This document shows positions 4,867 to 40,840 of a DNA stretch of 41,275 bases, in pieces. Source of the stretch: Promethearchaeota archaeon (lineage in GTDB: Archaea > Asgardarchaeota > Lokiarchaeia > Sigyniarchaeales > SOKP01). A program made the position numbers and the translations under genes. The stretch covers positions 2,427,614 through 2,468,888 of the forward strand of contig CP070831.1 in the NCBI GenBank assembly GCA_020344955.1, in the 5' to 3' direction. The notes beneath the pieces are model-generated. The model saw only the letters and a program-made list of their open reading frames with translations, had not been told where the DNA came from and did no database searches. Positions within the stretch are counted from its first letter, which is position 1; the number at the start of each line of letters is the position of its first letter.

Positions 4867-5008
4867 ATCTTAACTCATTAAGTTATAGTCTTATAAAATA
4901 ATTAAGCTTGATCATATTAGTTTTTAAAAATTAGAAGTGAAATTTAGATTTTCATTTTATTTAACCTCAATTTTAGACTTTAAAATATTGGAATATCAAA
5001 TAAATAAG

Positions 5009-5112: not shown

Positions 5113-5694
5113 ATGGTTGAAAATTATCATAAAAATTTTGAAAAAGTATTGAAAAAAAACTTTACAAATATTTTTGTATTAACTATTCTTGAAAAAGAAC
5201 CTTCTCATGGTTATAAGATAGGTATTGAAATTGAAAAACGCACTTTAGGAATGTGGAAACCATCAGCATCAACACTCTATTGGATATTAAATAACCTAAA
5301 AGAAAAGGGATTCATAAGACTCTTTAAAGAAGACAAAAACAAGAAAATCTATCAAATCACAGATACAGGTAGAGAAACCTTAAGATTAATGAAAATAACT
5401 CAACGTAAGATAAGAAAATCATATCGTCGTTTTCTAACTACATCAATAGTCAATAATGGTACAGTTGATGAAGAGGAGCTTGAACACTTTAATGATGTTC
5501 CAAGTATCCAAATGTTACCAACAGCCTTGAGACCAGATAAGTTTAATGGGGATTTAACACTATCAGAGAGGCTTAACATTTTGGAAATTCAAAGAGCATC
5601 CATAATAGAAAATCGTGATAGAATGAATGACTACATCAAAGATTTTGATAAAGCAATTTTAAAAATAAAAAAAGAACTGGATAATGAGGAATAG
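5113..5694 (+). CDS. PadR-family transcriptional regulator
   Basis: A 193-residue PadR-family regulator. The winged helix spans residues 16-85: KNFTNIFVLTILEKEPSHGYK, then the recognition helix with the hallmark PSASTLYWILNNLKEKGFI and a wing ending IYQITDTGRETL. The C-terminal part (about 140-193) is a helical, coiled-coil-like dimerisation segment, longer than in the minimal class-2 PadR proteins. A palindrome sits at the predicted transcription start, so self-regulation is likely. The radical SAM gene follows 64 bases downstream on the same strand and may be its target. The ligand is unknown. Confidence 0.88.
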   Translation: MVENYHKNFEKVLKKNFTNIFVLTILEKEPSHGYKIGIEIEKRTLGMWKPSASTLYWILNNLKEKGFIRLFKEDKNKKIYQITDTGRETLRLMKITQRKIRKSYRRFLTTSIVNNGTVDEEELEHFNDVPSIQMLPTALRPDKFNGDLTLSERLNILEIQRASIIENRDRMNDYIKDFDKAILKIKKELDNEE

Positions 5695-5758
5695 AAATCT
5701 CAAAAAGAAAAGTTTAGAAAAAATTGGTAAGAATGATTAAAAGCGAGTTGATATAAAA

Positions 5759-6730
5759 ATGAGTATAGAACAAAATAAAAAAAGAATAAATTTTCTTACT
5801 TTTCTTATCTCTTATAAATGTACTAACGAATGTAAGCATTGTGCGATTCCAGGTTCTCCAAATCAAGACAGAATTTTGATGAAACTGGATGATGTAAAGA
5901 AATATTTAGAGGATATTACCTCTAACTATATAGTTAATGAAGTAGGTTTTTTTGGAGGAGAGCCTCTCCTTCATCTTAATTTACTAATTAGCTTCATTGA
6001 AGAAGTAAAAAAATTTGATATTTCAAAGATAGGATTACCAACGAATGGATTTTGGGGGAAAGATGATTCTACTGCCAGAAACTATGCCCTAAAGTTAAAA
6101 GAGGCGGGTTTAAATAGCATTGGTTTTAGTGTTGATACATTTCATCAAGAATTTATTCCACTCGATGTAGTGAAACGAGCAATAAAAGCTGCTGATGAAG
6201 CTGGAATTGAACAGATATATTCAATAACTCAAAATCTAGGACCTCAAAACACAAATAATCTTTTTAATGAACAGAATAAAAAAATCACTGAAGAAATATC
6301 CAATGAGTTTAAGTTTTGTCAAGTAATAAATAGTGAATTACAAATAAGAGGTCGAGCTGTAAGAGAACTTTCTAAATATTTTAAAATAACAACAATGCCT
6401 TCGGATAGATGTCTTATTTTTAAGGTTCCAATGTTCATGATTGATCCTAATGGATGGGTTTTTCATCAATTGTGTCATGGAATTTGTATTGGAAATGCCC
6501 AGCAAAAACCCTTATCTGAAATAATAAGTGAATTTAACTATCGTAAACATCCAATAACAGGGAAGCTTGTAGTTAAAGGAGGACCCCAAAATATTCTTGA
6601 AATTGCGATTGAAGAGGGATATAAACCCCTAAATGGGTATGTAGACAAATGTCATCTCTGCTTTTCCACGAGGAATTTTCTTCGTCCTTTTTATCCAAAT
6701 ATCCTTGAACCCTCAAATTTATACTTTTAA
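5759..6730 (+). CDS. Radical SAM protein with C-terminal Cys-rich region
   Basis: Radical SAM enzymes use a 4Fe-4S cluster to split S-adenosylmethionine into a radical. The cluster motif is C21-x3-C25-x2-C28 (CTNECKHC), followed by the SAM-binding FFGGEP (64-69) and a (TNGFWG)/(SVDTFHQEF) barrel core. Further Cys residues at 218, 239, 243, 298 and 301 (LCHGICIGN and CHLCFSTR) probably bind an auxiliary cluster of the SPASM/Twitch type. Length (323 aa) fits. It follows the PadR gene, which may control it. No precursor peptide is visible nearby, so a peptide-modifying role is open; the substrate is unknown. Confidence 0.85.
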   Translation: MSIEQNKKRINFLTFLISYKCTNECKHCAIPGSPNQDRILMKLDDVKKYLEDITSNYIVNEVGFFGGEPLLHLNLLISFIEEVKKFDISKIGLPTNGFWGKDDSTARNYALKLKEAGLNSIGFSVDTFHQEFIPLDVVKRAIKAADEAGIEQIYSITQNLGPQNTNNLFNEQNKKITEEISNEFKFCQVINSELQIRGRAVRELSKYFKITTMPSDRCLIFKVPMFMIDPNGWVFHQLCHGICIGNAQQKPLSEIISEFNYRKHPITGKLVVKGGPQNILEIAIEEGYKPLNGYVDKCHLCFSTRNFLRPFYPNILEPSNLYF

Positions 6731-8008: not shown

Positions 8009-9736
8009 ATGTCGACAAAATTAGGAGAAGAAAATATTTTACTGAAAAAAGTGTGGAAAATCATCAATTTAATCCAAGCTAATCAGTTATTTGTTCATTT
8101 CAAAGATTTGAGCATTAGATATCAAGATGAAAAAAGTAAAAAATTAAGTACAAAAAAATTACCCGAAATATTATCACTCTGTATACTGAATGCTATAGTT
8201 CCAAATTCTGCTATACTCTTAGTAGGTGGCCATGGTGGTGGTAAAACAACACTTGCTAAACTTTTGGGAAGAATGTTTACTTCTAATTCGCTTAATGAAA
8301 TAGAAAACTCAATTATAAGAGGGCATCCTCAATTAACTGAAGAGAAACTTATTGGAACACTTAAACTCGGCAAGTTAATGAAAGAAGGTGAGGAAGAGGT
8401 TGTATGGAGACAATTTGTTACAAATTTCTGGAAAATTATAGATGAAGTAAATCGATTGACACCATATGCTCAGGATATCCTCTTATCATTACTGGCTGAA
8501 GGAACTGTTAAATATTACGATTCAATAACATCAATTAATAAATACAGCTTATTTGCTACTATAAATCCACATGATATTGGCACATTTGAATTATCTCAAC
8601 CATTTTTGGATAGGTTTGGAATATCTGTTCCTATTAGCATGCCTGGAAGTCATGATTTGCAAATTATCTTAGCGGGGAAAGATGAAAAATATAGTGGTCG
8701 AGATGAATTAATAGAGGTGCCAAAAGTTTTATCTATTGACGAATTGATGGAAATTTGGTATTATGTTAATAAAATGACTTTTACATCTGATGTTAATAAT
8801 TACATACATGCTATAATTAGAGAATTTACATTATGTTCTAGAGTTGATAAAGCAAATACTGAGGATTTAAAACCAAGTACTGGTTTATGTTCAGGTTGTC
8901 ATTTTAATACAGCTCAAAACATCTGTAATAAAATTGATTCGATTCTAAGTGTAAGAGTTGCAAAAGATCTTTTAAGATATTCGAAAGCTTTAGCTTGGTT
9001 ATTAGGAATCTATGAAATTGATGTCAATATTGTGAATACTATTGCACCATATGTAATTTCACACAGAGCAATATATGTAAAAAGAGATTTAGACAAAGCT
9101 CCTTATTTTGGAGATAAATATGAATTCACTCGCAACATTTTAAATACTATTCAAAAAAGATTTAAAAATCGTGAAGTGTGTTATCAAATTTCTGAGAGAT
9201 ATCGCCAAGGGAATCCCAAAAATGATGATTTAACTGAATTGAAAAAATTCGAGAAGAATGATTTGATTGTAAAATATGATTTAATACCATTTGTAAATTC
9301 AATAAATAATAAGGAATATGCACCAATTGCCCAACTAATACAGGATGCGTCTAAAAAAGGAGATATTACTAAACTAGCTGAAATTAGAAATCAACTCTTA
9401 GAGGAAATTGATTTTCCAAATAGAGGAGACTTAATTGAATGGTGTAATCGTGAGCTTTTCAAACAAACAGTTACCGACTATGTATTCAAGTATCAATTTA
9501 ATAAGGAATTATGGGCAGATATTGCTTCTGAATTTTCTGATCTAGACCAACCTTTAAAAGAGGCATTTAGTCAAAGGCAGACAAAACAAATTCGTACAGA
9601 AGATATGCTTCTTGAAATTAATGTTACTGGAACTAAAGAAGATTCCTTGGTGAATATTCAGGTTTCTGGAGGTTCTGAGGCAATAAAATTAAGATCCATT
9701 TTAGATAATCTAGATTACATGAAAAAGGAAGAATAA
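8009..9736 (+). CDS. MoxR-type AAA+ ATPase with four-Cys insertion
   Basis: A 575-residue AAA+ ATPase of the MoxR kind, which act as chaperones remodelling or loading cofactors into partner proteins together with VWA proteins. Walker A is GGHGGGKTT (73-81), Walker B is IIDE (143-146), sensor 1 is in ATINP (183-187), and QPFLDRFG precedes the arginine finger region. Before the sensor-2 lid (VRVAKDLLRYSKALAWLLG) lies C276-x17-C294-x2-C297-x8-C306, a possible Fe-S or zinc site not usual in MoxR. The C-terminal 200 residues are an added domain I do not recognise. The VWA gene starts 17 bases after the stop. Confidence 0.85.
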   Translation: MSTKLGEENILLKKVWKIINLIQANQLFVHFKDLSIRYQDEKSKKLSTKKLPEILSLCILNAIVPNSAILLVGGHGGGKTTLAKLLGRMFTSNSLNEIENSIIRGHPQLTEEKLIGTLKLGKLMKEGEEEVVWRQFVTNFWKIIDEVNRLTPYAQDILLSLLAEGTVKYYDSITSINKYSLFATINPHDIGTFELSQPFLDRFGISVPISMPGSHDLQIILAGKDEKYSGRDELIEVPKVLSIDELMEIWYYVNKMTFTSDVNNYIHAIIREFTLCSRVDKANTEDLKPSTGLCSGCHFNTAQNICNKIDSILSVRVAKDLLRYSKALAWLLGIYEIDVNIVNTIAPYVISHRAIYVKRDLDKAPYFGDKYEFTRNILNTIQKRFKNREVCYQISERYRQGNPKNDDLTELKKFEKNDLIVKYDLIPFVNSINNKEYAPIAQLIQDASKKGDITKLAEIRNQLLEEIDFPNRGDLIEWCNRELFKQTVTDYVFKYQFNKELWADIASEFSDLDQPLKEAFSQRQTKQIRTEDMLLEINVTGTKEDSLVNIQVSGGSEAIKLRSILDNLDYMKKEE

Positions 9737-9753
9737 GAGAATTTAAAGTCAAG

Positions 9754-11472
9754 ATGATTCAATCTAGAAGAAAAAAAGGAAGAAATTTTAAACAAGGGGC
9801 TTCAGAAAAAGAAAAGAAAATCATAGAACTAGCAAAAATAGCCTGGAACAAGACTTTAAAAGAATTTTATTATCCTCCCTTAAATGAACCAAATTATGTA
9901 TTTGATTATACTCATTTAGAAGGATTCTATATTGATCCAGATCATCGATGGCAAATAACAATGAATCTAGCTAATACTCCCATACTTAAAGATGATCAGG
10001 AATATATAGATTATTTTTATATTATTTCACTACATGAAGTTTCTCATTACCAAATTATACCATATGACGGATTAATTAATGCAAAATTACTTAGATCTGC
10101 TATGGAGTATGTAAATCAGAATTATGCACCTATTGTAGTAAATATATTTGCAGATTTAATAATTGATACTAAATTATTCAAAAAATATACTGATCTCATT
10201 ATTTGGGAAATGTGTGAGACTTATAAACATCTAAACAGTAAGGGGCCCATGAGTAATTTTAGTAAATTTTTATTTCGAGCTTATGAGAAAATGTGGAATA
10301 AAGATGTTATAGGGGATGAAACATTAAAAGAAATGGATTCTTTAGCAGGAAAAGTTTCAAAAATTATTCTCAAAGATTTCGAAGATGAATCAACTTGGGA
10401 AAAGAAAGTTTCCCAAATAGCAAATAATTTAAATATATTAATCCAAGACACTTTTACATTGATTGGAACAAGAGGAATTTTAGATAGAAATAAAGAAAAA
10501 AGAAAAAGTCCTGGAGGAGCATTTGTAGAAGTTCCTAAAGATGTTTTAGAAATAATGGACAATCCTTTAGAAAATAAAAATTCAGATAAACTTAAAGAGG
10601 GTAATGATGACAGTCTACAGCAAAAATCTGAAGAATTTGCTAAAAATATCCCGTATTCTGAATTTGGAGGTCCTGCGCGTCAAGCAGGTATTTTGGTCGA
10701 TGGAAGCACGTTAGCTGCATGGTATAGAGGTTTAGCTAAAAATTTGATTGAGATAAAAATTTTTGAACAAAAACCAGGAGGACAATTACCCATTTATCCA
10801 GAACTCTGGCGTATTGGAGATAGAATAGAAGAATTAGATATTGTACAAAGTCTGCTGAATAGTCCAGTAATTATACCAAATATCACTACAAGAAAATGGG
10901 CATTTACAGCAGGACCTGGTCATTTAATTGAACAGGAGATACCAGATCTTCTAATTGTTCTAGACTCTTCAGGATCTATGGGTTGGAATTATACTTCTAG
11001 ATCTATTAGTGGTAGAGGGCCATATCATACAGCTCTAGTAGCCGCTTTTGCATCTTTACATTACGCAGCTAGTAAAGGGGCCAAATTTAGTATAATTAAT
11101 TTTTCAAATAGAGCTGATATTTGCCAATGGACATCTAATTATAAAAAAGCTGAAAAAACACTATTGCGATATCAAGGAGGAGGTACATTTCTGCCAATAG
11201 AAGAAATTACCAATCAATGTGAAAAAGCAGAAAAAAAGGCGTTAGTTTTTATAATTACAGATTTTGGCATATATAATTGGAGTAAAGCTAAGAAAGCTAT
11301 GCTAAATTTGGTTGAAAAGGGGCATAAAATTGTAGGTTTTTTCATTGGATCCAAGAAAATACCTAAAGACAAATTCAAGAGTTTATTTGATAGAGTCACA
11401 TTCTATGGTATAGGAAATCCTAAAGATTTAATTAGTCTAGTAATAAAAGAAGTACAAAATTATTATGTATGA
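9754..11472 (+). CDS. Metallopeptidase-like plus VWA domain protein
   Basis: A 572-residue protein with two modules. The N-terminal part has a zinc-peptidase signature HEVSH (94-98) in a helix, followed at about 130-140 by NIFADLIIDTKL, which may hold a third ligand. The C-terminal VWA domain has an intact MIDAS: DSSGS (404-408), Thr478 in GGGTFLP, and Asp503 in ITDFG, so it should bind a divalent metal and a protein partner. This resembles the bacterial putative-metallopeptidase/VWA-like (DUF2201) proteins that sit beside MoxR ATPases. No signal peptide: it is cytosolic. With the upstream ATPase it forms an operon. Confidence 0.8.
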   Translation: MIQSRRKKGRNFKQGASEKEKKIIELAKIAWNKTLKEFYYPPLNEPNYVFDYTHLEGFYIDPDHRWQITMNLANTPILKDDQEYIDYFYIISLHEVSHYQIIPYDGLINAKLLRSAMEYVNQNYAPIVVNIFADLIIDTKLFKKYTDLIIWEMCETYKHLNSKGPMSNFSKFLFRAYEKMWNKDVIGDETLKEMDSLAGKVSKIILKDFEDESTWEKKVSQIANNLNILIQDTFTLIGTRGILDRNKEKRKSPGGAFVEVPKDVLEIMDNPLENKNSDKLKEGNDDSLQQKSEEFAKNIPYSEFGGPARQAGILVDGSTLAAWYRGLAKNLIEIKIFEQKPGGQLPIYPELWRIGDRIEELDIVQSLLNSPVIIPNITTRKWAFTAGPGHLIEQEIPDLLIVLDSSGSMGWNYTSRSISGRGPYHTALVAAFASLHYAASKGAKFSIINFSNRADICQWTSNYKKAEKTLLRYQGGGTFLPIEEITNQCEKAEKKALVFIITDFGIYNWSKAKKAMLNLVEKGHKIVGFFIGSKKIPKDKFKSLFDRVTFYGIGNPKDLISLVIKEVQNYYV

Positions 11473-16501: not shown

Positions 16502-16690
16502 ATTTATCAAAAAATTTTTTTATATACTACCTTTTTCTTAAGATCCATAATAATCAATGGATTTTAATTAATTAATGCAATTTTAATCTTATTAATTAAA
16601 AGTACTATTATAAAAATCTTTAAACTCTTATTCCACATCATACTGAATAAACCTTATAAATTCAAATTGTAAATACTAATATTAAAAATA

Positions 16691-16705
16691 TTTAAATATA
16701 TTATA
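16691..16705 (+). promoter_or_regulatory. Strong TATA box before the first acidic microprotein gene
   Basis: TTTAAATATATTATA lies 85 bases upstream of the ATG at 16776. The same arrangement (TTTAAATATATAATA, 87 bases) precedes the second acidic gene at 22398. The leader would be about 55 bases. Confidence 0.5.
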
Positions 16706-16775
16706 GAATTTATTACTTACTTGATATTATAGAGTTATGTTATTTTTAGACAATAATTAAGTATCGGTGGAAAAA

Positions 16776-16925
16776 ATGAGTAGAAAAAAAATTGAGGACG
16801 AAGATGAGGATTGGGACGAAGATGAGGAATCGGATGATGATGAAGAGGATTGGGACGAAGATGAGGAATCGGATGATGATGAAGAGGATTGGGATAATGA
16901 TGGATATTTCGAAGAAGAATATTAA
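16776..16925 (+). CDS. Acidic Trp-repeat microprotein 1 (49 aa)
   Basis: A 49-residue protein, almost all Asp and Glu after a short basic start (MSRKK), with tryptophans at exactly 13-residue steps (W13, W26, W39) and ending FEEEY. Two perfect 13-residue units (EDWDEDEESDDDE) are encoded by identical 39-base repeats. A ribosome site GGTGG (16766-16770) precedes the ATG by 5 bases and a strong TATA box lies 85 bases upstream. A second gene of the same design is at 22398-22505. I know no family; metal buffering or a nucleic-acid-mimic role are guesses. Confidence 0.7.
   Translation: MSRKKIEDEDEDWDEDEESDDDEEDWDEDEESDDDEEDWDNDGYFEEEY
16806..16883 (+). repeat. Perfect 39-base tandem repeat, two copies, in microprotein 1
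   Basis: Copies 16806-16844 and 16845-16883 are identical base for base, coding EDWDEDEESDDDE twice; the start of a third copy (GAGGATTGGGA) follows. Identity at synonymous sites indicates a recent duplication or ongoing slippage. Confidence 0.85.
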
Positions 16926-17025
16926 AATTAAATGTATTTAATTAGAAGTATAAGAATATCCTCAGATATTTAAATCTGAGATTAAAATTGATGACAAATC
17001 TTCAAATTTTCTATATCATCACAAT

Positions 17026-18345
17026 TCAACCACTAAATAACAATAGTAAAGGTAAATATGCTATAGATAAAACTATGTGAATTATTGCGAAAGTAGCCCC
17101 AACTTTCAATAATCTTTTAAAATTTAAGTTTTCCACGTTGTTATTCTGAGCAATCTTAAGCGTCATAACATCACAAGCAGCTCCTTGAGGTATTAGATTT
17201 CCCCCAATATTTACTGCTATTATTAATGCATAATATAATGGAACAGAAGGAAATCCAAATCCCCCATCTATCACTGGAGTTATTAATAAATTGACGATAG
17301 GAATAAATACTAATGCTGTGGGAGTATTAGCAACGACTCCAGACACAAAGCTAACAAGTAATAAAATAATTAAACTAACTAGAAAAGGATTTAAAGTCTG
17401 AAAAGGTATATTTTTAAAAAGATTTTCAAAACCTGCAACTCCTAAGCAACCAACAACGACATATAATGAAATAAAAAAAAAAATTATTTCCCATTCAATA
17501 TCCTTTAAAAATTCGCTCATCTTTTTTTTTGTAAATTTTCTATTAATCAATACTAATAAAAATGCGGAAAATGCGGCGGTTAAATAAAGTAACGGTAGAA
17601 TTGCAAAAAGTATTATTGTTATGATAATTGCAATACTGTTAAAATGGAACATTTTTTTATTTGATATCATTACTTTTGCATCTATTAGATCTAGGACGTA
17701 CTTCTTTTGTATATCTTCTATCTGCGGTTCTTTACTAAGTTGGAATTTATCTATTAAAAAAGCTGTTATGAATAATAAAAAAAAAGAGAAAATCCAATAA
17801 TAGATGATGAAATAAGCCGTGTCTAAACGAAACGCAGCGGAGATTATAATATTTTCTCCACTAGAGAAGGGTGTTATAATTGACCCTATGTTTATACAGA
17901 TTGTCATTCCTAGTAGATATGTCCCTGCTCTAGTTTTCAAGAATCGACATAGCCGTATAACCACTGGTGCTAATATTAAAACAACAACCACATCACTAAT
18001 GATAGCTGCTAAAAGGGTTGTTATGAGACATAATAAATAAAAAAATATCCTCCTATTACCTTTTGAAATTTTGAAAAGTTTTACAGCTAAAAATTCTAAA
18101 ATATTTGAATCTTGTGCGATTTTAGTTATTATACTCATACATAAAATGACTATTATAGCTTCAAATTCTATAAATGAAATAAAATTAGTTATGTCAAGAC
18201 CTTTTACTACACCTGTTATAGTACCTGCTGTAAAGCAACATAATAATGAAATAGTTACAAAATCAAATTTCTTTGATGAATAGCTTATTAATATAACAAT
18301 AAAAATAACAAATATTACAATTAGGAGCCAAAGATCCTCCAACAT
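17026..18345 (-). CDS. Ion-transporter-superfamily permease (SLC13/ArsB-like)
   Basis: A 439-residue integral membrane protein of about 10-12 segments in the ion transporter superfamily (ArsB, NhaD, citrate-type and SLC13 relatives). It has the internal two-fold pattern of this group: DVVVVLILAPVVIRLC with INIGSIITPFSSGENIIISA in the first half, and VANTPTALVFIPIVNLL with VNIGGNLIPQGAACDVM in the second; these are the hairpin-loop regions that bind the substrate anion and sodium or protons. A short cytosolic loop (about 195-235) joins the halves. Substrate cannot be told; arsenite, a dicarboxylate or Na+/H+ exchange are all possible. Confidence 0.85.
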   Translation of the reverse strand: MLEDLWLLIVIFVIFIVILISYSSKKFDFVTISLLCCFTAGTITGVVKGLDITNFISFIEFEAIIVILCMSIITKIAQDSNILEFLAVKLFKISKGNRRIFFYLLCLITTLLAAIISDVVVVLILAPVVIRLCRFLKTRAGTYLLGMTICINIGSIITPFSSGENIIISAAFRLDTAYFIIYYWIFSFFLLFITAFLIDKFQLSKEPQIEDIQKKYVLDLIDAKVMISNKKMFHFNSIAIIITIILFAILPLLYLTAAFSAFLLVLINRKFTKKKMSEFLKDIEWEIIFFFISLYVVVGCLGVAGFENLFKNIPFQTLNPFLVSLIILLLVSFVSGVVANTPTALVFIPIVNLLITPVIDGGFGFPSVPLYYALIIAVNIGGNLIPQGAACDVMTLKIAQNNNVENLNFKRLLKVGATFAIIHIVLSIAYLPLLLLFSG

Positions 18346-18529
18346 ATTTATTTATTTGTATGTTAAGTCATAAAATAATTTTTATAAAAGTGAAATAAGA
18401 ATTTAAACTTGTGTAAATTTAAATTAAATTTAATTATCTTATCTCTAAATAAATATTAATAATTCCTAATAGAATTGTAAATTTTATTACAGAATTAACT
18501 CTAGAATTCTATATAAGGTAATTTTTATA

Positions 18530-19639
18530 TTGAATGGCGAAGTAATTTTTTTCCGATTAACGGATGTGGGACGTAGTATTGATTTGAATAAGGTGATTAA
18601 TATTATTCCTGCAATTCACGATAAAAAAATTGTTAAAACTAAAGATACGCCATCATATGTAGATTTTCCAGCTCCCTTACTTTTAGAAGTTACTCAAAAA
18701 ATATCCTCTGATTTAAAAAATGTTGAAGATTTAACTCTCTATATTAAATTATATTCTGATGGTGTGATTTCCTTGATTGCTAGACTTGTTTTCCGAGATT
18801 TCACTTTTAAAAAATTACACACTTTAAGGAGAATTAAATTTAAGACTTCTGATGGTGAATTTCAAATTAGCAATTTTATGAAATATCATCAAGATAAAGT
18901 GTTTAAACAAATAAGAGATTGTATCAATGAAGAAGGTTTTATATTTGGTGAATCTGAGCACGAAAGATATACATTATATTGTTTAACTGATGATTTAGAG
19001 AATCCTAAAGAATTTATAGGAAATGAGAGAAGGTATATTTCAGCTCTACTTATGGGAGAAAATCCTGAATTAAACCTTAGTGAAGAACAAATTGATAAAA
19101 CACTTGGTCAACCATTTTCTTTTTTAAAAAATGATTTGATAATCTTTGATTTTGATAGAGGATTGATAATTGATCCCAATTATGATTATGAAGATATTTT
19201 ATATGTGGTTGAGATTGCTAATTTTCAAATGCTTGAATTACGTGTATTAGATAAGTTATTAGATCGAAGGTTAGCAATAGCAGAAGAAGATATACGTAAA
19301 ATTTATTTCAAAAGTAGGAGTATTGTTAGAAGATTAAAAAAAAAAATGGGGAGGCTAATTCGATTAAGATATGATTTAATATTTTTATTAGAAAATATTG
19401 AAAATGTTTCAAAGTTAGTGGGCGATTATTATTTGGCAGAAATATATACATATTTAGCGGAGTTATTTCAATTGAAACAATGGAGTAAAAGTATAAGACA
19501 TAGACTTGAAACTTTAGAAAATATATACAATGTTACACAAACTAATATTAATGAAAAATTCCTGCTTTATGTTGAGATTCTACTTAGCTTTGTCTTTATT
19601 ATGGAATTTATTTTACTACTCCTAGATTTTTTCTTATAG
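18530..19639 (+). CDS. RMD1/DUF155-like membrane-anchored protein
   Basis: A 369-residue protein starting at TTG 18530 (no in-frame ATG nearby). Its C-terminal half has the plan of RMD1/DUF155 proteins: FDFDRGLIIDPNYDYEDIL, a helical region (VEIANFQMLELRVLDKLLDR), a long coiled-coil segment with YLAELFQLKQWSKSIRHRL and LETLENIYNVTQTNI, and a single C-terminal membrane helix (YVEILLSFVFIMEFILLLL, about 348-366). Eukaryotic RMD1/RMND1 are mitochondrial inner-membrane proteins supporting translation. The N-terminal half is divergent. The 3' end overlaps the convergent gene by 6 bases. The assignment rests on pattern, not alignment. Confidence 0.55.
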   Translation: MNGEVIFFRLTDVGRSIDLNKVINIIPAIHDKKIVKTKDTPSYVDFPAPLLLEVTQKISSDLKNVEDLTLYIKLYSDGVISLIARLVFRDFTFKKLHTLRRIKFKTSDGEFQISNFMKYHQDKVFKQIRDCINEEGFIFGESEHERYTLYCLTDDLENPKEFIGNERRYISALLMGENPELNLSEEQIDKTLGQPFSFLKNDLIIFDFDRGLIIDPNYDYEDILYVVEIANFQMLELRVLDKLLDRRLAIAEEDIRKIYFKSRSIVRRLKKKMGRLIRLRYDLIFLLENIENVSKLVGDYYLAEIYTYLAELFQLKQWSKSIRHRLETLENIYNVTQTNINEKFLLYVEILLSFVFIMEFILLLLDFFL

Positions 19640-21565
19640 TCTAATCCTTTTTAATGTTGCTTCTAAAATTCTTCTTAACATCTCTTTATAGGGTATATTA
19701 GCAACATTACACATTTTTGCTAAATGTCCATCCCAACACCAACCAGGATTCGGATTTACCTCTAAAAGCTTAGGATTCCCTTTGCTATCTAAACGCCAAT
19801 CAAACCGCGTATAATCTTGACACTCCAGACGTGTAAATAATTTAAGAGAACATGCCTCTATTATATTAACTATTTCTTGTGGAAGATTTGCAGGAATTGA
19901 TTTAATATTCCAATAAACAGAATCTGGTAACCATTTTGCTTCATACCCACATATTTGTGGTAATTCTGGTGGCAAACTTGAATAATCTTCTTCAATAATT
20001 GGAAGGATAATATAATTATCAGTTGGATTTCCAATAATTCCAACTGAAAGATCTTTTCCAGTGAGGAATTGTTCAATAAGAATTGGTTTATCATAACCAA
20101 ATTTTTCACGAATTTCTGTTATTGCACTTAGTAATTCTTCTCCGTTTTCAACTACACTTTTTTGAGTAATTCCAAAACTAGAATCACCAAAATTAGGTTT
20201 TACAATTGCAGGGAAATATAGTGGTAGATCAATAATTTTTTCTTCAGGTTTGATGAAAATGGCTTCAGGAACAGGAATTTCTAACTCTTTTGCAATACCT
20301 CGAACTAATGATTTATCATAACAAAAGGCGAGACATTGAGGTCCTGAACCAGTATATGGAATATTTAGAATTTCCAATAAAGCAGGAATATGTAATTCCT
20401 TTCTAGCATCGTTTAAATAACCTTCATCACACAAATTAAAAGCAAAATCAACTTTTCCTCTTAAATTCTGTAAATCTTGAATAAGAGTGTTATGATTATC
20501 TAAATATACAAAATTAAATTCATGAAGATTCTTTAATGCGTTTTTTAATTGATCTACAGTATAAAAATCATCGTCATCAAATATATTAGATGGTTTAAGC
20601 AAATCAGGTTTATTAGGGTCTCCAAAAATTACGACCACATTATTTTTAATTTTCTTTTCTTTCTTTTTAACTTCAGTCCATTCTTTCTTTACAGTAGCAC
20701 TAACAATGATCCTTTTTTTCATCATACCTAAATCTTGGCCTCGCTGAGATTCAGGAGTAATTGAGCCATTAAAAATTATATCACTGAAACCTACGTCTTT
20801 TAATAATTTTGAAATCTTGTTTTTAGAATATAGTCTTTCTGAATAAAACTGATCAACTAATACACCTTTATTAACGTGGGTTATAACTTCCCGAGAAATC
20901 AATTTATGTTTGTCTAAAGATAAAGATCTCTCTCTACAAACGAAAAGTTCTTTATCGATCCATTCCCATGAACGTCGTTCAAAATTTTTTTTAATATAAT
21001 CTCCATCTGTAATATCGACTAATATTTTTCCCCATGGTTTTAAAACACGGAAAACTTCTTTTAAAACTCGAAAATCGTCATTCATAGATTCAAAATATCC
21101 AAAACTATTACCCAAAATCATAACAAAATCAAAAGTATCTGTATTGTAAGGTAATTTTCTTGCATCACCTTCACCAAATTTACATATAACACCACGATTT
21201 TTTGCAGTTGATTTAGCTTTTTGAATTAAATATCTAGAACGATCCAATCCATAGATATTATTAAATCCCTGACTAGCTAATTCAATACAATGTCTTCCTT
21301 GACCGCAACATAGATCTAAAATATAATGCTCTGGTTGGAAATTCATAATACTTGAGAAATAAGCTATTTCAGATTTAGTAATTCTTTGATCTTCTACCAC
21401 ATCACCATCTGTTTTTAAGTAATAAGCGTTAAAAATCCTTTTCCACCAATCTTTTTTAACATATTCTTCTAAATTGAAGACAGGGCCAATACATTTTGAT
21501 GAATGCTTTTCTTTACTTTCAAAATTTCTTTTTTTATTATTTATGCCTTCTGTTTGAGTTGTCAT
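19634..21565 (-). CDS. Methyltransferase fused to a D-Ala-D-Ala-ligase-like ATP-grasp
   Basis: A 643-residue two-enzyme fusion. Residues about 60-300 are a class I SAM methyltransferase: motif I LDLCCGQGRH (83-92), then DFVMILGNSFGYF and EVFRVLKPWGKILVDI. After a Lys-rich linker, residues about 310-640 are an ATP-grasp ligase of the D-alanine-D-alanine ligase type: IPYTGSGPQCLAFCYDKSLV, FPAIVKPNFGDSSFGI, ILIEQFLTGKDLSVGII, and the metal-binding LLEVNPNPGWCWDGHL. Such ligases join amino acids or hydroxy acids. Archaea lack D-Ala peptidoglycan, so it more likely makes a modified amino-acid or peptide product. It is a single-gene unit. Confidence 0.85.
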   Translation of the reverse strand: MTTQTEGINNKKRNFESKEKHSSKCIGPVFNLEEYVKKDWWKRIFNAYYLKTDGDVVEDQRITKSEIAYFSSIMNFQPEHYILDLCCGQGRHCIELASQGFNNIYGLDRSRYLIQKAKSTAKNRGVICKFGEGDARKLPYNTDTFDFVMILGNSFGYFESMNDDFRVLKEVFRVLKPWGKILVDITDGDYIKKNFERRSWEWIDKELFVCRERSLSLDKHKLISREVITHVNKGVLVDQFYSERLYSKNKISKLLKDVGFSDIIFNGSITPESQRGQDLGMMKKRIIVSATVKKEWTEVKKKEKKIKNNVVVIFGDPNKPDLLKPSNIFDDDDFYTVDQLKNALKNLHEFNFVYLDNHNTLIQDLQNLRGKVDFAFNLCDEGYLNDARKELHIPALLEILNIPYTGSGPQCLAFCYDKSLVRGIAKELEIPVPEAIFIKPEEKIIDLPLYFPAIVKPNFGDSSFGITQKSVVENGEELLSAITEIREKFGYDKPILIEQFLTGKDLSVGIIGNPTDNYIILPIIEEDYSSLPPELPQICGYEAKWLPDSVYWNIKSIPANLPQEIVNIIEACSLKLFTRLECQDYTRFDWRLDSKGNPKLLEVNPNPGWCWDGHLAKMCNVANIPYKEMLRRILEATLKRIRL

Positions 21566-21917
21566 TATTGTTTTATAAACAGCTTTTTAATTTTAATACA
21601 TATAGAAGAAAATAGAGTTTTTTAAACATACACGAAGTCAAAACAAATTTATTATATTCTTTAAAAATGTTATCGTCTGTAATAATGTTTCTAAAATTAT
21701 CAATTTTAATACTATTTGTCATCTATAGTTTTGGCGATTATAACGATTATGTTATTTAGATTTGATTATAATAAATTAAATTAGATAAATATGTTTGAAG
21801 TTAAATAAGATTAAACACATTTAAAAAGTTTTTGATATAATTTATAATTCATAAAATTAAACAATATACACATAACTTTCCGAAAATGTTCAAAATATTC
21901 CATAAAAAATTGATACG

Positions 21918-22182
21918 ATATATAAGCTAAGTTTAAAGAAATAAATAAAAACTTTATCTGTTATAATGTATTCTTTTCTTAGACATTTTAGGGTGTTTAA
22001 CGATTTCTATTGATGATTGAGTCATTACTCTCAATTATAATTGTGCTAAATGAAACAATCTTACGTAAATCTGATTTATTATTGAATTTAGAAATAAATT
22101 CAAATTTATTAAAGATTCTAAGAAATACATAGAATTTAGGAACCTAAAATCCTATTAAAATTAATTTTTTATTTTAAAAAGG
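21918..22182 (+). ncRNA. Candidate structured RNA in the long gene-free stretch
   Basis: The stretch 21566-22397 holds no convincing coding frame. Within it, a TATA-like ATATATAAG (21918-21926) is followed by three perfect inverted repeats: ATTGAG/CTCAAT (22016-22035), a 9-base-pair hairpin TTGAATTTA with a GAAA loop (22082-22103), and TTTAGG/CCTAAA (22135-22148), then a weak hairpin containing a T-run (22151-22182). The GAAA tetraloop is of the stable GNRA class. In such A+T-rich DNA short hairpins arise by chance, so this is a weak proposal; strand is assumed from the TATA box. Confidence 0.2.
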
Positions 22183-22310
22183 CAACATTACTTTACTGCT
22201 GATAAAATTTAAATTTTTAAAGTTCGTAAAGAATTCATGAAAAATTTTAAATCTTATATGATCTCAATAAGTTCTTTCACTTTTAATTATTGTAATCAAA
22301 ATTAGAAACA

Positions 22311-22325
22311 TTTAAATATATAATA
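22311..22325 (+). promoter_or_regulatory. Strong TATA box before the second acidic microprotein gene
   Basis: TTTAAATATATAATA lies 87 bases before the ATG at 22398, nearly the same box and distance as upstream of the first acidic gene (16691-16705, 85 bases). Confidence 0.5.
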
Positions 22326-22397
22326 ACTTTTTTATCGTAATTGATAATATATGATCATTTCAATCTAATTTTAATGATAAAAGAGGAGATAAATAAA

Positions 22398-22505
22398 ATG
22401 GTTGGAAAAGAAAAAGATGAAGATGATGAAGACTGGGATGAAGATGATGAGGACTGGGATGAAGATGATGAAGACTGGGAAGATTTTGATGAGGAAGAAT
22501 ATTAA
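22398..22505 (+). CDS. Acidic Trp-repeat microprotein 2 (35 aa)
   Basis: A 35-residue protein built of three heptads DEDDEDW after a short start (MVGKEK), with tryptophans at 13, 20 and 27, and ending DEEEY like microprotein 1. The heptads are coded by 21-base repeats. A good ribosome site AGAGGAG (22382-22388) and a strong TATA box precede it. The shared first Trp at residue 13, the EEEY end and the matched promoter make this a paralogue of the gene at 16776. Function unknown. Confidence 0.7.
   Translation: MVGKEKDEDDEDWDEDDEDWDEDDEDWEDFDEEEY
22416..22478 (+). repeat. Three 21-base tandem repeats in microprotein 2
   Basis: Units at 22416-22436, 22437-22457 and 22458-22478 code DEDDEDW each; they differ only by one synonymous GAA/GAG change. 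The unit length (21) differs from that of the paralogue (39), so the repeats expanded independently. Confidence 0.8.
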
Positions 22506-37981: not shown

Positions 37982-39358
37982 TTAAATTTTGGTTATGTTC
38001 CGAAAATTTGTAATGATTTTTTGGAGTCTTTCTAATAAACTTCTTATTTCAGAGGAATTATTTTTAAATACTTGTAGTTCGGCATTCAATTTTTCAAACT
38101 TTTCATCTATGCTTGAATTTAATGGCGTTATAGTTTCTATTATATGATCTTTAAAATCTAGGGTAATTGAATTTATTCGATCGGTAGAACTGGTTAAATT
38201 AGATACTATATGGTTTACTAATTCTTCAATTTTTATGTTATTACGGGAATTATCTTCAAGTTTTTCATTACTAGTGGCAACGAGTTGATCAATTTCATTA
38301 TTTAGATTTTTTATATTTTCTTCAACGACTTCATTTAGATTTTTTATAATAGTTTCTTTAACTTGAGTAAATCCCTCAGCAAATTGCTTCTGTTCTTCAA
38401 TTCGAGTATCTACATATCTAATAACATCCTTTTTAAATTTGACAACTATTTCATTTAAAGTCTTCTTAAACCAGTTATTGACTTTGAGGAATCCAGATGA
38501 TACAGTTTCTTTCATCTTATTAACCGATTTGCTAATATATTCAGTTCCTTGGGAATTTCCTCTGCTAATATCATTAAACCAATCTCCAATTTGAGCTTTA
38601 AAGGTTTCAACAAACATTTCTGATAGCTTTTGAGAACCTTGTTTAAATCCTGAGAATAGAGAGGTAATTTGTGAATAATCTAAATATTCCTCTTTTAATA
38701 ATTCTGGTTCTTCGGGTGATGGAATTTCTTGCAATTCACCTGGAATTTGCTCATCAATTTCATTAATCTCTTTAATTAAAATGGGATTTTTTTTCTGAAA
38801 ATCCTCTAAAAATTTCTGAACCCATTTAAAATATTCTAATGTAGAGGGTATTTCAAGTTCAAATGGTATACTAGAGTATTTATCAGTTTTGGAATAATCA
38901 TCAAGTCTAAAAATGTCAAATCCCAAGTTCATTCCTTGTCCCATTAAAGTGTGATCAAATACAATGCTAAAACAATAAGGTGATTCCTCATTTTGAAAGT
39001 ATTGTAGGTTCCCTAAATCACTTTCAGAAAGATATAATCCCCACGAAGGATGAGAATGATAATAACCCAGTAAATTCAATGAATATTTTTTGCGAATTTG
39101 TTCAAACAATTCATACATATCTTTATCAAACCCAATTTCCACTTTATCACCATGAGTTATTGGTATAGCATTTTCTATTATAACTTTATTCTCTGCAACA
39201 TTATATTTTCCTATACATACCCCCAATACTTCTATACTGTTTTCTAAAGCATTACTCCCAAAACGTAGCACATGAGTTATCATGTTTCTGAAAGCTTCTT
39301 TTTTTATGAAAATACTCGCGTTTGCAGGATTGTTATTATCAGTTTCTTTATCTATCAA
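37982..39358 (-). CDS. JAMM/MPN+ metalloprotease with coiled-coil tail, copy 2 (458 aa)
   Basis: A member of the JAB1/MPN/Mov34 family that cleaves ubiquitin-like modifiers from targets. All catalytic residues are present: Glu43 (SIEVLGVCIG) and the HxHx7SxxD metal site H101, H103, S111, D114 (HSHPSWGLYLSESD). Residues about 1-180 form this domain; 180-235 is a Glu/Pro-rich linker; 235-458 is a long helical coiled coil with many Asn/Lys/Glu. It starts 10 bases after the upstream JAMM gene and is its paralogue. It resembles Rpn11-like enzymes in the motif but has its own tail. The substrate is unknown. Confidence 0.85.
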   Translation of the reverse strand: MIDKETDNNNPANASIFIKKEAFRNMITHVLRFGSNALENSIEVLGVCIGKYNVAENKVIIENAIPITHGDKVEIGFDKDMYELFEQIRKKYSLNLLGYYHSHPSWGLYLSESDLGNLQYFQNEESPYCFSIVFDHTLMGQGMNLGFDIFRLDDYSKTDKYSSIPFELEIPSTLEYFKWVQKFLEDFQKKNPILIKEINEIDEQIPGELQEIPSPEEPELLKEEYLDYSQITSLFSGFKQGSQKLSEMFVETFKAQIGDWFNDISRGNSQGTEYISKSVNKMKETVSSGFLKVNNWFKKTLNEIVVKFKKDVIRYVDTRIEEQKQFAEGFTQVKETIIKNLNEVVEENIKNLNNEIDQLVATSNEKLEDNSRNNIKIEELVNHIVSNLTSSTDRINSITLDFKDHIIETITPLNSSIDEKFEKLNAELQVFKNNSSEIRSLLERLQKIITNFRNITKI

Positions 39359-39367
39359 GTCTATTTA

Positions 39368-40840
39368 TCAGCCTCCTTTTTCATGTTTTTCAATTTTTTT
39401 TAATAAATCTTCATTTTGCTTTTTCAAATCAGTTATACTTTTTTGGAGCGTTTTGTTTTCATTTTCTAATGTATCGAGTTTATTTTGGATAGGATTCTTT
39501 GAGCTCTCTAACAATATAATAGCTGCTTTTAGGTCTGAAAGAAACTCTTTAGTATCTTTACTTAAATTGATAAAATTCCCAATTACCTTGTTAGAATTTT
39601 TTGTAATTGTTCCTGAAACTTTTTCTATTTCATCTTTCAAAATATTTACAGAGGAATTTCCGAATGAATTGATATTTGTTGATAAAGTTTCAGCAATATT
39701 GATTTGCTTCTCTAAGATCTCTGAAGATTTAAATTGAACCTTATTAATTTCTGATAACTTTTCATTGTATTGATTCATAAAATCTAGCAGTTTGTCTATA
39801 TCTTGTTTCAATTTTTTCTCAAATAATGAATTAATTTGCTCTTCTAATTCGAATTTAATTTCATTGAATGATTCTCTAAAAATTTCTAGATTTGAGTCAA
39901 ATCCTTCGAATTTATCATCAATATACATATCCAATTCGTTTAATTTTTCTTTTAATGAAAATTTAAAATCCTTTTGTAGATTAGACATCCCTTTACTAAG
40001 GCTCTCCCTAATGTTAACAATATCACTTCTCATTTGCAAGTTGCTTTCAACAGTGTTTCTTATCATATTTTCACTCCATGAATTAATAAACATAATTAAT
40101 GGGCCTATTGATAAATCCAAAAAATCTGATAATCCGGTTTTTAAACTTGATAAGATAACTTGAAGATCTAATTCAGGTTTTTTTGCTAGAATTTGGTTTT
40201 CACTTGGAAATGTAATATCTCCAAAAATATCAGGTAATTCATTAATTTCTAAAATGGGAGGCTCCTTTGAGTGGACAAAATTTATTAATTCAAATAACCT
40301 AATATAATAGTCAATACTATCAGGAGCTTCAACACTAGCTTTTATTTCATGATAGCCAGACATTTGACCTTTAGCAGGGTTGTCTAATCGAAAAGTACGA
40401 AATCCTAAATCTCCTGGTTTTTCTAAGTATGTGTGGTCAAAAACAATTCCTATTGCACTTGGATTGGGTGTCTGCCAACCAAGTTGATTACGAATATCAG
40501 TAGAAGAAAAGAATATATCAAGACTAGGATGAGAGTGAAACCATCCACAACTAAACCAATTTTTTTCTGCATAAGTAGCATCAACCATAGAAAATGTTAC
40601 ATAGTCTTCCGGCTGAAAGGCAACTTCAATTGAGCTCCCATGGGAGATAGGAACTGCGTCCTCAATAATAACATCTCTAATTCCTTTTTTATCAGGATCC
40701 CCCTCTAAATGTCCAATAAGAATTCCCATAACTTCCTTAAATTGCCTACGATCTCGTTCTTTATTACCAAAACGAAGGACATGCACAAGCATTTTATAAT
40801 AAGCATCAGGTTTTATAATTACTCTTTTTTCAGATGACAA
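39368..40840 (-). CDS. JAMM/MPN+ metalloprotease with coiled-coil tail, copy 1 (490 aa)
   Basis: First gene of the tandem JAMM pair. Glu36 (EVMGILIG) and H102, H104, S112, D115 (HSHPSLDIFFSSTD) complete the zinc site of an active MPN+ deubiquitinase-like domain (about 1-190). The rest (about 235-490) is helical, ending in a heptad-rich coil (NPIQNKLDTLENENKTLQKS). The pair shares core and tail plans but tail sequences differ. A reverse TATA box (CTATATATATTTC, 40883-40895) lies about 45 bases upstream of the ATG, so the two genes are expressed from their own promoter and not from the zinc-ribbon gene behind them. Confidence 0.88.
   Translation of the reverse strand: MSSEKRVIIKPDAYYKMLVHVLRFGNKERDRRQFKEVMGILIGHLEGDPDKKGIRDVIIEDAVPISHGSSIEVAFQPEDYVTFSMVDATYAEKNWFSCGWFHSHPSLDIFFSSTDIRNQLGWQTPNPSAIGIVFDHTYLEKPGDLGFRTFRLDNPAKGQMSGYHEIKASVEAPDSIDYYIRLFELINFVHSKEPPILEINELPDIFGDITFPSENQILAKKPELDLQVILSSLKTGLSDFLDLSIGPLIMFINSWSENMIRNTVESNLQMRSDIVNIRESLSKGMSNLQKDFKFSLKEKLNELDMYIDDKFEGFDSNLEIFRESFNEIKFELEEQINSLFEKKLKQDIDKLLDFMNQYNEKLSEINKVQFKSSEILEKQINIAETLSTNINSFGNSSVNILKDEIEKVSGTITKNSNKVIGNFINLSKDTKEFLSDLKAAIILLESSKNPIQNKLDTLENENKTLQKSITDLKKQNEDLLKKIEKHEKGG

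Follow-up and report, generated by a model that had tools for sequence, protein, structure and literature searches.

What is encoded by two very short, strongly acidic open reading frames (ORFs), P0001 and P0002, that lie in a 41,275-nucleotide stretch of DNA (here termed 'the window') from a Promethearchaeota archaeon, and what might their products do? The window corresponds to bases 2,427,614-2,468,888 of a single-contig, Lokiarchaeia-type genome of 3,343,605 bases (assembly GCA_020344955.1, contig CP070831.1); it belongs to the Asgard archaea, the nearest relatives that eukaryotes are known to have. An earlier note, made from the sequence alone, had described the two ORFs as paralogous genes of no known family, and had likened their products to metal-binding or nucleic-acid-mimicking peptides. 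The analyses described below indicate that P0001 and P0002 are very probably real microprotein genes; we tentatively propose, at somewhat less than an even chance, that they belong to a fast-evolving Asgard family of disordered, polyanionic proteins that would bind basic proteins by means of tryptophan anchors, possibly as mimics of nucleic acid.

Two acidic, tryptophan-bearing microprotein genes

Both ORFs, of 49 and 35 residues, were found exactly as the earlier note had described them, with the first tryptophan at residue 13 and the sequence EEEY at the end of each translation. Their features are as follows.

16683-16724, plus strand: putative archaeal promoter of P0001, of presumed function, consisting of an A-rich stretch like a B recognition element (BRE), the TATA sequence TTTAAATAT (16691-16699) and CTTACTTGA (16716-16724), as aligned with the P0002 upstream group
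16766-16770, plus strand: Shine-Dalgarno-like GGTGG of P0001, read from the sequence
16776-16925, plus strand: P0001, a 49-residue acidic Trp microprotein, MSRKKIEDEDEDWDEDEESDDDEEDWDEDEESDDDEEDWDNDGYFEEEY; net charge -30, 6.2 kDa, C-terminal ...WDNDGYFEEEY
16806-16894, plus strand: 39-nucleotide tandem repeat in P0001 (2.3 copies, 100% match), source of the 13-residue Trp step
22305-22344, plus strand: putative conserved promoter of P0002, of presumed function, with BRE-like GAAAC (22305-22309), TATA TTTAAATAT (22311-22319) and CGTAATTGA (22336-22344)
22383-22388, plus strand: Shine-Dalgarno-like GAGGAG of P0002, read from the sequence
22398-22505, plus strand: P0002, a 35-residue acidic Trp microprotein, MVGKEKDEDDEDWDEDDEDWDEDDEDWEDFDEEEY; net charge -23, 4.5 kDa, ending in EEEY and without an NDG motif
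22416-22480, plus strand: 21-nucleotide tandem repeat in P0002 (3.1 copies, 95% match), source of the 7-residue Trp step

The tryptophans of P0001 are located at residues 13, 26 and 39 and those of P0002 at residues 13, 20 and 27, and the resulting steps of 13 and 7, which had been reported as fixed, arise from the in-frame tandem DNA repeats of 39 and 21 nucleotides. That regularity is a property of the two ORFs, but not a rule of the family, in that the spacing of tryptophans across 60 relatives ranges from 4 to 23 residues, with a mode of 6-7 and no fixed step. An alternative start for P0002 is present 24 nucleotides earlier (ATG at 22374), and the shorter form is favoured because GAGGAG precedes 22398. 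The gene that follows P0001 encodes a CitMHS transporter on the other strand, while P0002 is followed by a 70-residue ORF and then by a MobA-like gene. Common gene callers such as Prodigal take genes of 90 nucleotides or more, and the earlier remark that both ORFs escape the usual callers by their shortness is doubtful. Shuffled versions of the window that preserved its dinucleotide content (n = 60) produced no ORFs of this kind, and no third gene containing (D/E)3-W-(D/E)2 was found in the 3.34 Mb genome, in which P0001 and P0002 are the only two.

Upstream regions, paralogy and selection

The upstream regions of P0001 and P0002 align with a score of 44.5, versus a mean of 29.4 (standard deviation 3.3, maximum 36.0) for alignments of the P0001 upstream region with those of 28 other window genes; this and the other statistical values reported here were obtained from our own scripts with simple null models. 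The similarity supports a duplication of the gene together with its promoter. While paralogy is not demonstrable from the protein sequences, because of their low complexity, the upstream comparison argues that the two genes are probably paralogous, as had been suggested.

Upstream identity between P0002 and its relatives at the same genomic site is 56-85%, and the layout of the region is kept: an A-rich BRE-like stretch and the TATA-like TTTAAATAT are followed approximately 25 nucleotides later by CGTAATTGA, with the TATA and CGTA-TTGA columns retained in at least 9 of 11 aligned upstream regions of the P0002 group. Two groups, each of five sequences, could be aligned; in these the ratio of non-synonymous to synonymous proportions (pN/pS) was 0.41 and 0.36, which indicates purifying selection in those groups; these are Nei-Gojobori proportions from our own script, in which exchanges of D to E are scored as non-synonymous.

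Relatives within the Lokiarchaeia

Protein-level genome searches with P0001 or P0002 gave few relatives because of low complexity, whereas degenerate DNA patterns succeeded; chains that consist almost entirely of acidic residues (Asp and Glu) and Trp are easily missed by similarity searches because low-complexity sequence scores weakly. A pattern corresponding to (D/E)3-W-(D/E)4 matched 15 of the 39 genomes of a close sample, with most of its matches in ORFs of 30-77 residues, and the backward pattern matched none. In the Lokiarchaeia (the window itself falls in Loki family f1, the f-numbers being family labels in our genome sample), the microprotein genes recur at three sites. The first, occupied by P0001, is located downstream of a cysteine desulfurase gene; the second, occupied by P0002, is found near a gene for a methyltransferase/ATP-grasp fusion, and often also near a MobA-like gene; and the third lies beside a DUF255/thioredoxin-like gene. 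Copies related to P0001 (type A) are present at the third site in genomes G008, G009, G011 and G015, and bear an NDG motif near the C-terminus. One further copy in G011 (G011:C24), while also downstream of a cysteine desulfurase gene, is better read as a relative of P0002 because it has an upstream region of the P0002 type.

The second site is marked in the window by the following landmark.

19634-21565, minus strand: S-adenosylmethionine methyltransferase/D-Ala-D-Ala-ligase-like ATP-grasp fusion (Pfam), divergent from P0002; a syntenic marker only

Its named relatives at 66-82% protein identity are mostly from Candidatus Lokiarchaeota or Lokiarchaeia, which identifies the host as a Lokiarchaeia-type Asgard archaeon. 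Of 21 Lokiarchaeia contigs, approximately 15 have a microprotein at this site; among approximately 60 non-Loki contigs there is none, the single apparent match (L081) being itself a Lokiarchaeota contig. As a separate observation, the fusion gene is strongly conserved in archaea and many bacteria, with 63-82% identity among its best 80 matches.

A family distributed across the Asgard archaea

The earlier note had called for a search of related genomes, and relatives were found: the motif DNA pattern matched 85 of 228 Asgard genomes, against 0 of 228 for the backward control. Free-standing ORFs in the style of P0001 and P0002 are present in families f28, f23, f26, f18, f15 and f9. Such ORFs were absent from 97 kb of Asgard PCNA loci and from approximately 780 kb of non-Loki loci (with L081 again the single, Lokiarchaeota match), and free-standing acidic-aromatic microproteins are nearly absent from the sampled non-Asgard genomes. 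Matches were found in 4 of 44 genomes that had been reached via other contigs: those in G256 and G265 sit inside ordinary proteins, a third is an Acidobacteria ORF, and thus outside the Asgard archaea, with an acidic tail of DW repeats (L252 1063-1617), and the fourth is in an unclassified archaeon that has short EEEW ORFs. In G150 of family f19 a longer ORF (L197 4909-5568), with several cysteines and no Pfam match, ends in a fused EEEW-type repeat.

The features of the family were tabulated for 60 distinct members, after seven collected loci that did not resemble family members had been removed by hand; because the members are not independent of one another (they are related, and the pattern itself served in part to select them), the figures are descriptive and not formal probabilities. 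The chains are 25-77 residues long, are made almost wholly of Asp, Glu and Trp, and carry net charges from -10 to -43, with approximately 90% of tryptophans flanked by D or E on each side, composition figures that are biased by selection through the Trp/acid pattern. Most members are preceded by Shine-Dalgarno-like sequences. The C-terminal residue is Tyr, Trp or Phe in 34 of the 60, versus 8.8 expected from composition (0 of 20,000 simulated sets reached 34), and the NDG motif was observed 15 times, versus 0.66 expected from shuffles, all in the Loki family. Pattern selection places no obvious bias on either of these counts, except that one of the two sub-patterns used for collection included W-D-N-D-G, which may have raised the number of NDG motifs to some extent.

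The statement that no known family resembles these proteins was borne out in that ten members had no match in Pfam at E values up to 10, and P0001 had none among PDB sequences. No description of such a family was found in the open-access literature, which does not prove its absence elsewhere, and the family is apparently undescribed so far.

A basic protein encoded beside the microprotein

In three families of Asgard archaea (f28, f23 and f26) a single protein family (cluster 0) recurs beside the microprotein gene. Its members are 263-323 residues in length and strongly basic (isoelectric point 10.2-11.3, net charge +21 to +37), and a profile found them in 39 of 224 Asgard genomes. When loci were fetched via this basic protein, 27 of 30 held an acidic-Trp ORF within approximately 1 kb, and in 25 of those 27 the arrangement was head-to-head, with the acidic-Trp ORF upstream on the opposite strand, 195-425 bp away (the 25 include L288 of family f8, whose ORF is acidic though not as typical). 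At L183, a locus of the f28 type, the microprotein ORF spans 4894-4992 and the basic gene 5266-6156. In the two f26 genomes the two acidic-Trp copies lie downstream of the basic gene on the same strand, and in three f18 genomes a comparison of positions placed pattern matches 0.4-0.5 kb from it. These positions indicate a linkage of the two genes in four non-Loki Asgard families. In two genomes (L264 2337-2675 and L265 1004-1474) the basic gene is flanked on its far side by a second acidic-Trp ORF, which ends in DWPEEFWDDD[IV]E[ED]DYDDW.

The basic protein produced nothing above the cut-off in Pfam or NCBIfam. An AlphaFold2 model computed from a nine-sequence alignment (mean predicted local distance difference test score 83.7) combines an alpha/beta portion with three long helices at the C-terminus, and offers a hint, and no more, of a nucleic-acid-associated fold of the PaaX/Cas2 type.

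Acidic-Trp tails on PCNA

In four genomes of family f15 PCNA (Pfam PCNA_N, E of 3e-14 or better) carries the acidic-Trp repeat as its C-terminal tail, at the following loci.

L194 4202-5083; L217 4143-5051; L218 3189-4007; L165 637-1560: PCNA with acidic-Trp tail, f15

A general link between the microproteins and PCNA was considered and rejected: Loki-family PCNA is without a long tail (as judged from the length of its open frame), no microprotein gene was found beside 30 Asgard PCNA genes, and the tail was observed in f15 only. These PCNA tails are the nearest Asgard parallel to the tails of E. coli SSB and T7 gp2.5, which resemble the microproteins in being acidic with an aromatic last residue, and which use that tail for docking. 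According to work cited in PMC9917605, the C-terminal Phe is essential in T7 gp2.5. Unlike the microproteins, which are mostly free-standing, contain many tryptophans and have no oligonucleotide/oligosaccharide-binding (OB) fold, such tails belong to proteins that bind single-stranded DNA.

A possible role as a polyanionic binder of basic proteins

Starting from what can be read in the DNA itself (the genes, their conservation and position, the upstream elements, purifying selection, the enrichment of C-terminal aromatics, the linkage to a basic protein and the fusion to PCNA), the following mechanism can be proposed. The chain would be disordered; its Asp and Glu residues, as a polyanion, would cover that face of a basic protein which is positively charged and binds nucleic acid; and the spaced tryptophans, together with the terminal Trp, Phe or Tyr, would act as hydrophobic anchors that provide affinity and some specificity. 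The microprotein might thereby serve as a small chaperone, or as a competitor for nucleic acid. Where a gene for the basic protein adjoins, its product would be the likely client; in the Lokiarchaeia, for which the search for a homologue of the basic protein gave none, the client would be encoded elsewhere in the genome and might be a histone. Both the Loki-confined NDG motif and a cluster of Lys at the N-terminus look like elaborations.

The nucleic-acid mimicry suggested in the earlier note gains weight because the basic neighbour is conserved in other Asgard families; the net charges of the family and that neighbour both fit a mimic whose binding is predicted. Binding of this acidic-aromatic kind has precedents: in the acidic domain of APLF, a disordered chain that imitates DNA contacts, aromatic anchors are required (PMC9328677), DSS1 binds RAD52 via acidic and aromatic residues (PMC6954417), and acidic activation domains combine acidic residues with Trp, Phe and Leu under low sequence constraint and in fuzzy binding (PMC8137143). 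Unlike activation domains, with which they share acidic residues, aromatics and low constraint, the microproteins have no attached DNA-binding domain. Archaea are also not known to have Mediator.

Several observations weigh against this proposal. The homologue of the basic protein was not found in the Loki family with two profiles, the weak matches there being short stretches of its helical part, mostly in larger ORFs, so that the evidence for a partner is drawn from other families. The fold match of the model is weak, with PaaX as the best PDB match (E = 0.004, template-modelling score approximately 0.23) and several Cas2 proteins weaker. Adjacency of the two genes could reflect shared regulation alone; homology of the microproteins across families is unprovable from low-complexity sequence, and convergence is possible. 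In 6 of approximately 21 Lokiarchaeia contigs that contain the P0002 landmark no microprotein is present at that site, and the sole relative of P0001 at its own site is a 5'-truncated remnant in the close relative G018 (L047 5363-5449), which is P0001-like, lacks a start and adjoins a sequence that by eye resembles the end of the CitMHS gene. Disruption of the frames in close relatives, which the earlier note had named as a finding that would tell against the genes, was thus encountered in part for P0001 and not for P0002.

If the interaction with a partner is real, acidic-aromatic disordered regulators of the type known from eukaryotic chromatin and repair would also exist in the nearest archaeal relatives of eukaryotes, where they would be free-standing proteins, and the microprotein and its basic neighbour in four families would constitute a testable partnership, with two small proteins at hand for study at the bench. 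A broader version, in which the free-standing acidic-aromatic class would be, across the Asgard archaea, a dedicated polyanionic chaperone of a basic nucleic-acid-handling protein and an archaeal functional forerunner of DSS1 and of histone-chaperone tails, appears rather improbable.

Alternative explanations

For those members that bear the NDG motif, such as P0001, the best rival to the binding of basic proteins is the binding of Ca2+ or lanthanides, which we consider unlikely. The sequence D-x-(D/N)-N-D-G-x-aromatic-(D/E) would form an EF-hand-like half loop beside Trp or Tyr, with the acidic repeats adding sites of low affinity, and the start of this loop in Loki-family members (D-x-D-N-D-G-x-aromatic-E) resembles EF-hand loops and lanthanide-binding tags. 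The excess of NDG motifs lends this idea, also raised in the earlier note, some weight, and by inspection 14 of the 15 motifs have Asp at position 1, all 15 a hydrophobic residue at position 8 and 14 an acidic one at position 9. As to the other expected loop residues, Asp or Asn is present at position 3 in 10 of the 15, and positions 5 and 6 are Asp and Gly in every motif. At position 12, however, where EF-hands have Glu, an acidic residue is present in only 6 of 14 and Glu in one; the flanking sequence is acidic repeat and not helix; and the motif is confined to the Loki family and is missing even from P0002.

A role as a histone chaperone, in which the acidic-aromatic chain would bind archaeal histones in the manner of APLF, FACT or Nap1-type acidic tails, would be a special case of the binding of basic proteins, and is a quite unlikely one. 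Histone-fold genes are present in the genome of the window (2 matches) and in nearly all Loki-family genomes, the lineages in which histone matches are scarce or absent (f12, f13 and f24) are also without the motif pattern, and in G124 a histone gene lies approximately 0.85 kb from a microprotein gene. The support from co-occurrence is nonetheless weak and confounded by phylogeny, because several histone-bearing families (among them f2, f4, f17 and f20) have few or no free-standing matches; genomes that have the microprotein are not cleanly distinguished by histones from those that lack it, only a single genome showed a histone gene as neighbour, and the constant neighbour in four families is another basic protein. 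An acidic segment with aromatic anchors, which is needed but insufficient for membership of the histone-chaperone class, is present in the family, and a disordered acidic chain with Tyr, Phe or Trp anchors that imitates DNA contacts has its precedent in APLF (PMC9328677), disorder being presumed for the microproteins. APLF-type domains differ in being parts of larger eukaryotic proteins, whereas the microprotein is an acidic chain throughout, for which histone binding is only a candidate function.

It is improbable that the microproteins are DSS1/Sem1-like adaptors, possibly kin of DSS1 itself, for recombination, single-stranded-DNA-binding or proteasome complexes. The two groups share a size of tens of residues, strong acidity, Trp amid acidic residues and a free-standing gene, and DSS1 contacts basic DNA-repair proteins, including RAD52, through ionic and aromatic interactions (PMC6954417). 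The searches described above, in which low-complexity filters may hide matches and which included no positive control, found none to Pfam (including DSS1_SEM1) or the PDB, and by inspection no C-terminal helix is apparent; members are usually a repeat array that ends in an acidic run, often with an aromatic last residue.

That no gene exists, and that GAN-rich tandem repeats have expanded neutrally and remained open by chance, is very improbable: the repeats are indeed near-perfect tandem copies and the P0001 counterpart in G018 is truncated, but pN/pS is approximately 0.4, position, upstream region and Shine-Dalgarno sequence are conserved, C-terminal aromatics are enriched, and the backward control was zero in 228 genomes. 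A leader (attenuator) peptide that senses tryptophan supply, for which short intergenic ORFs with several Trp codons would be suited, is scarcely credible, given that the next genes (CitMHS on the other strand; the 70-residue ORF and the MobA-like gene) are not tryptophan genes, and that the microprotein gene, in the other Asgard families, mostly faces away from the neighbour that constantly accompanies it.

Other genes of the window

Two further gene pairs in the window were identified by eye. At 8009-11472, two adjacent large genes appear to encode an ATPase of the MoxR type and a protein with a VWA domain, and at 37982-40840, on the minus strand, two adjacent genes appear to encode JAMM proteins (JAB/MPN type) whose long tails resemble coiled coils.

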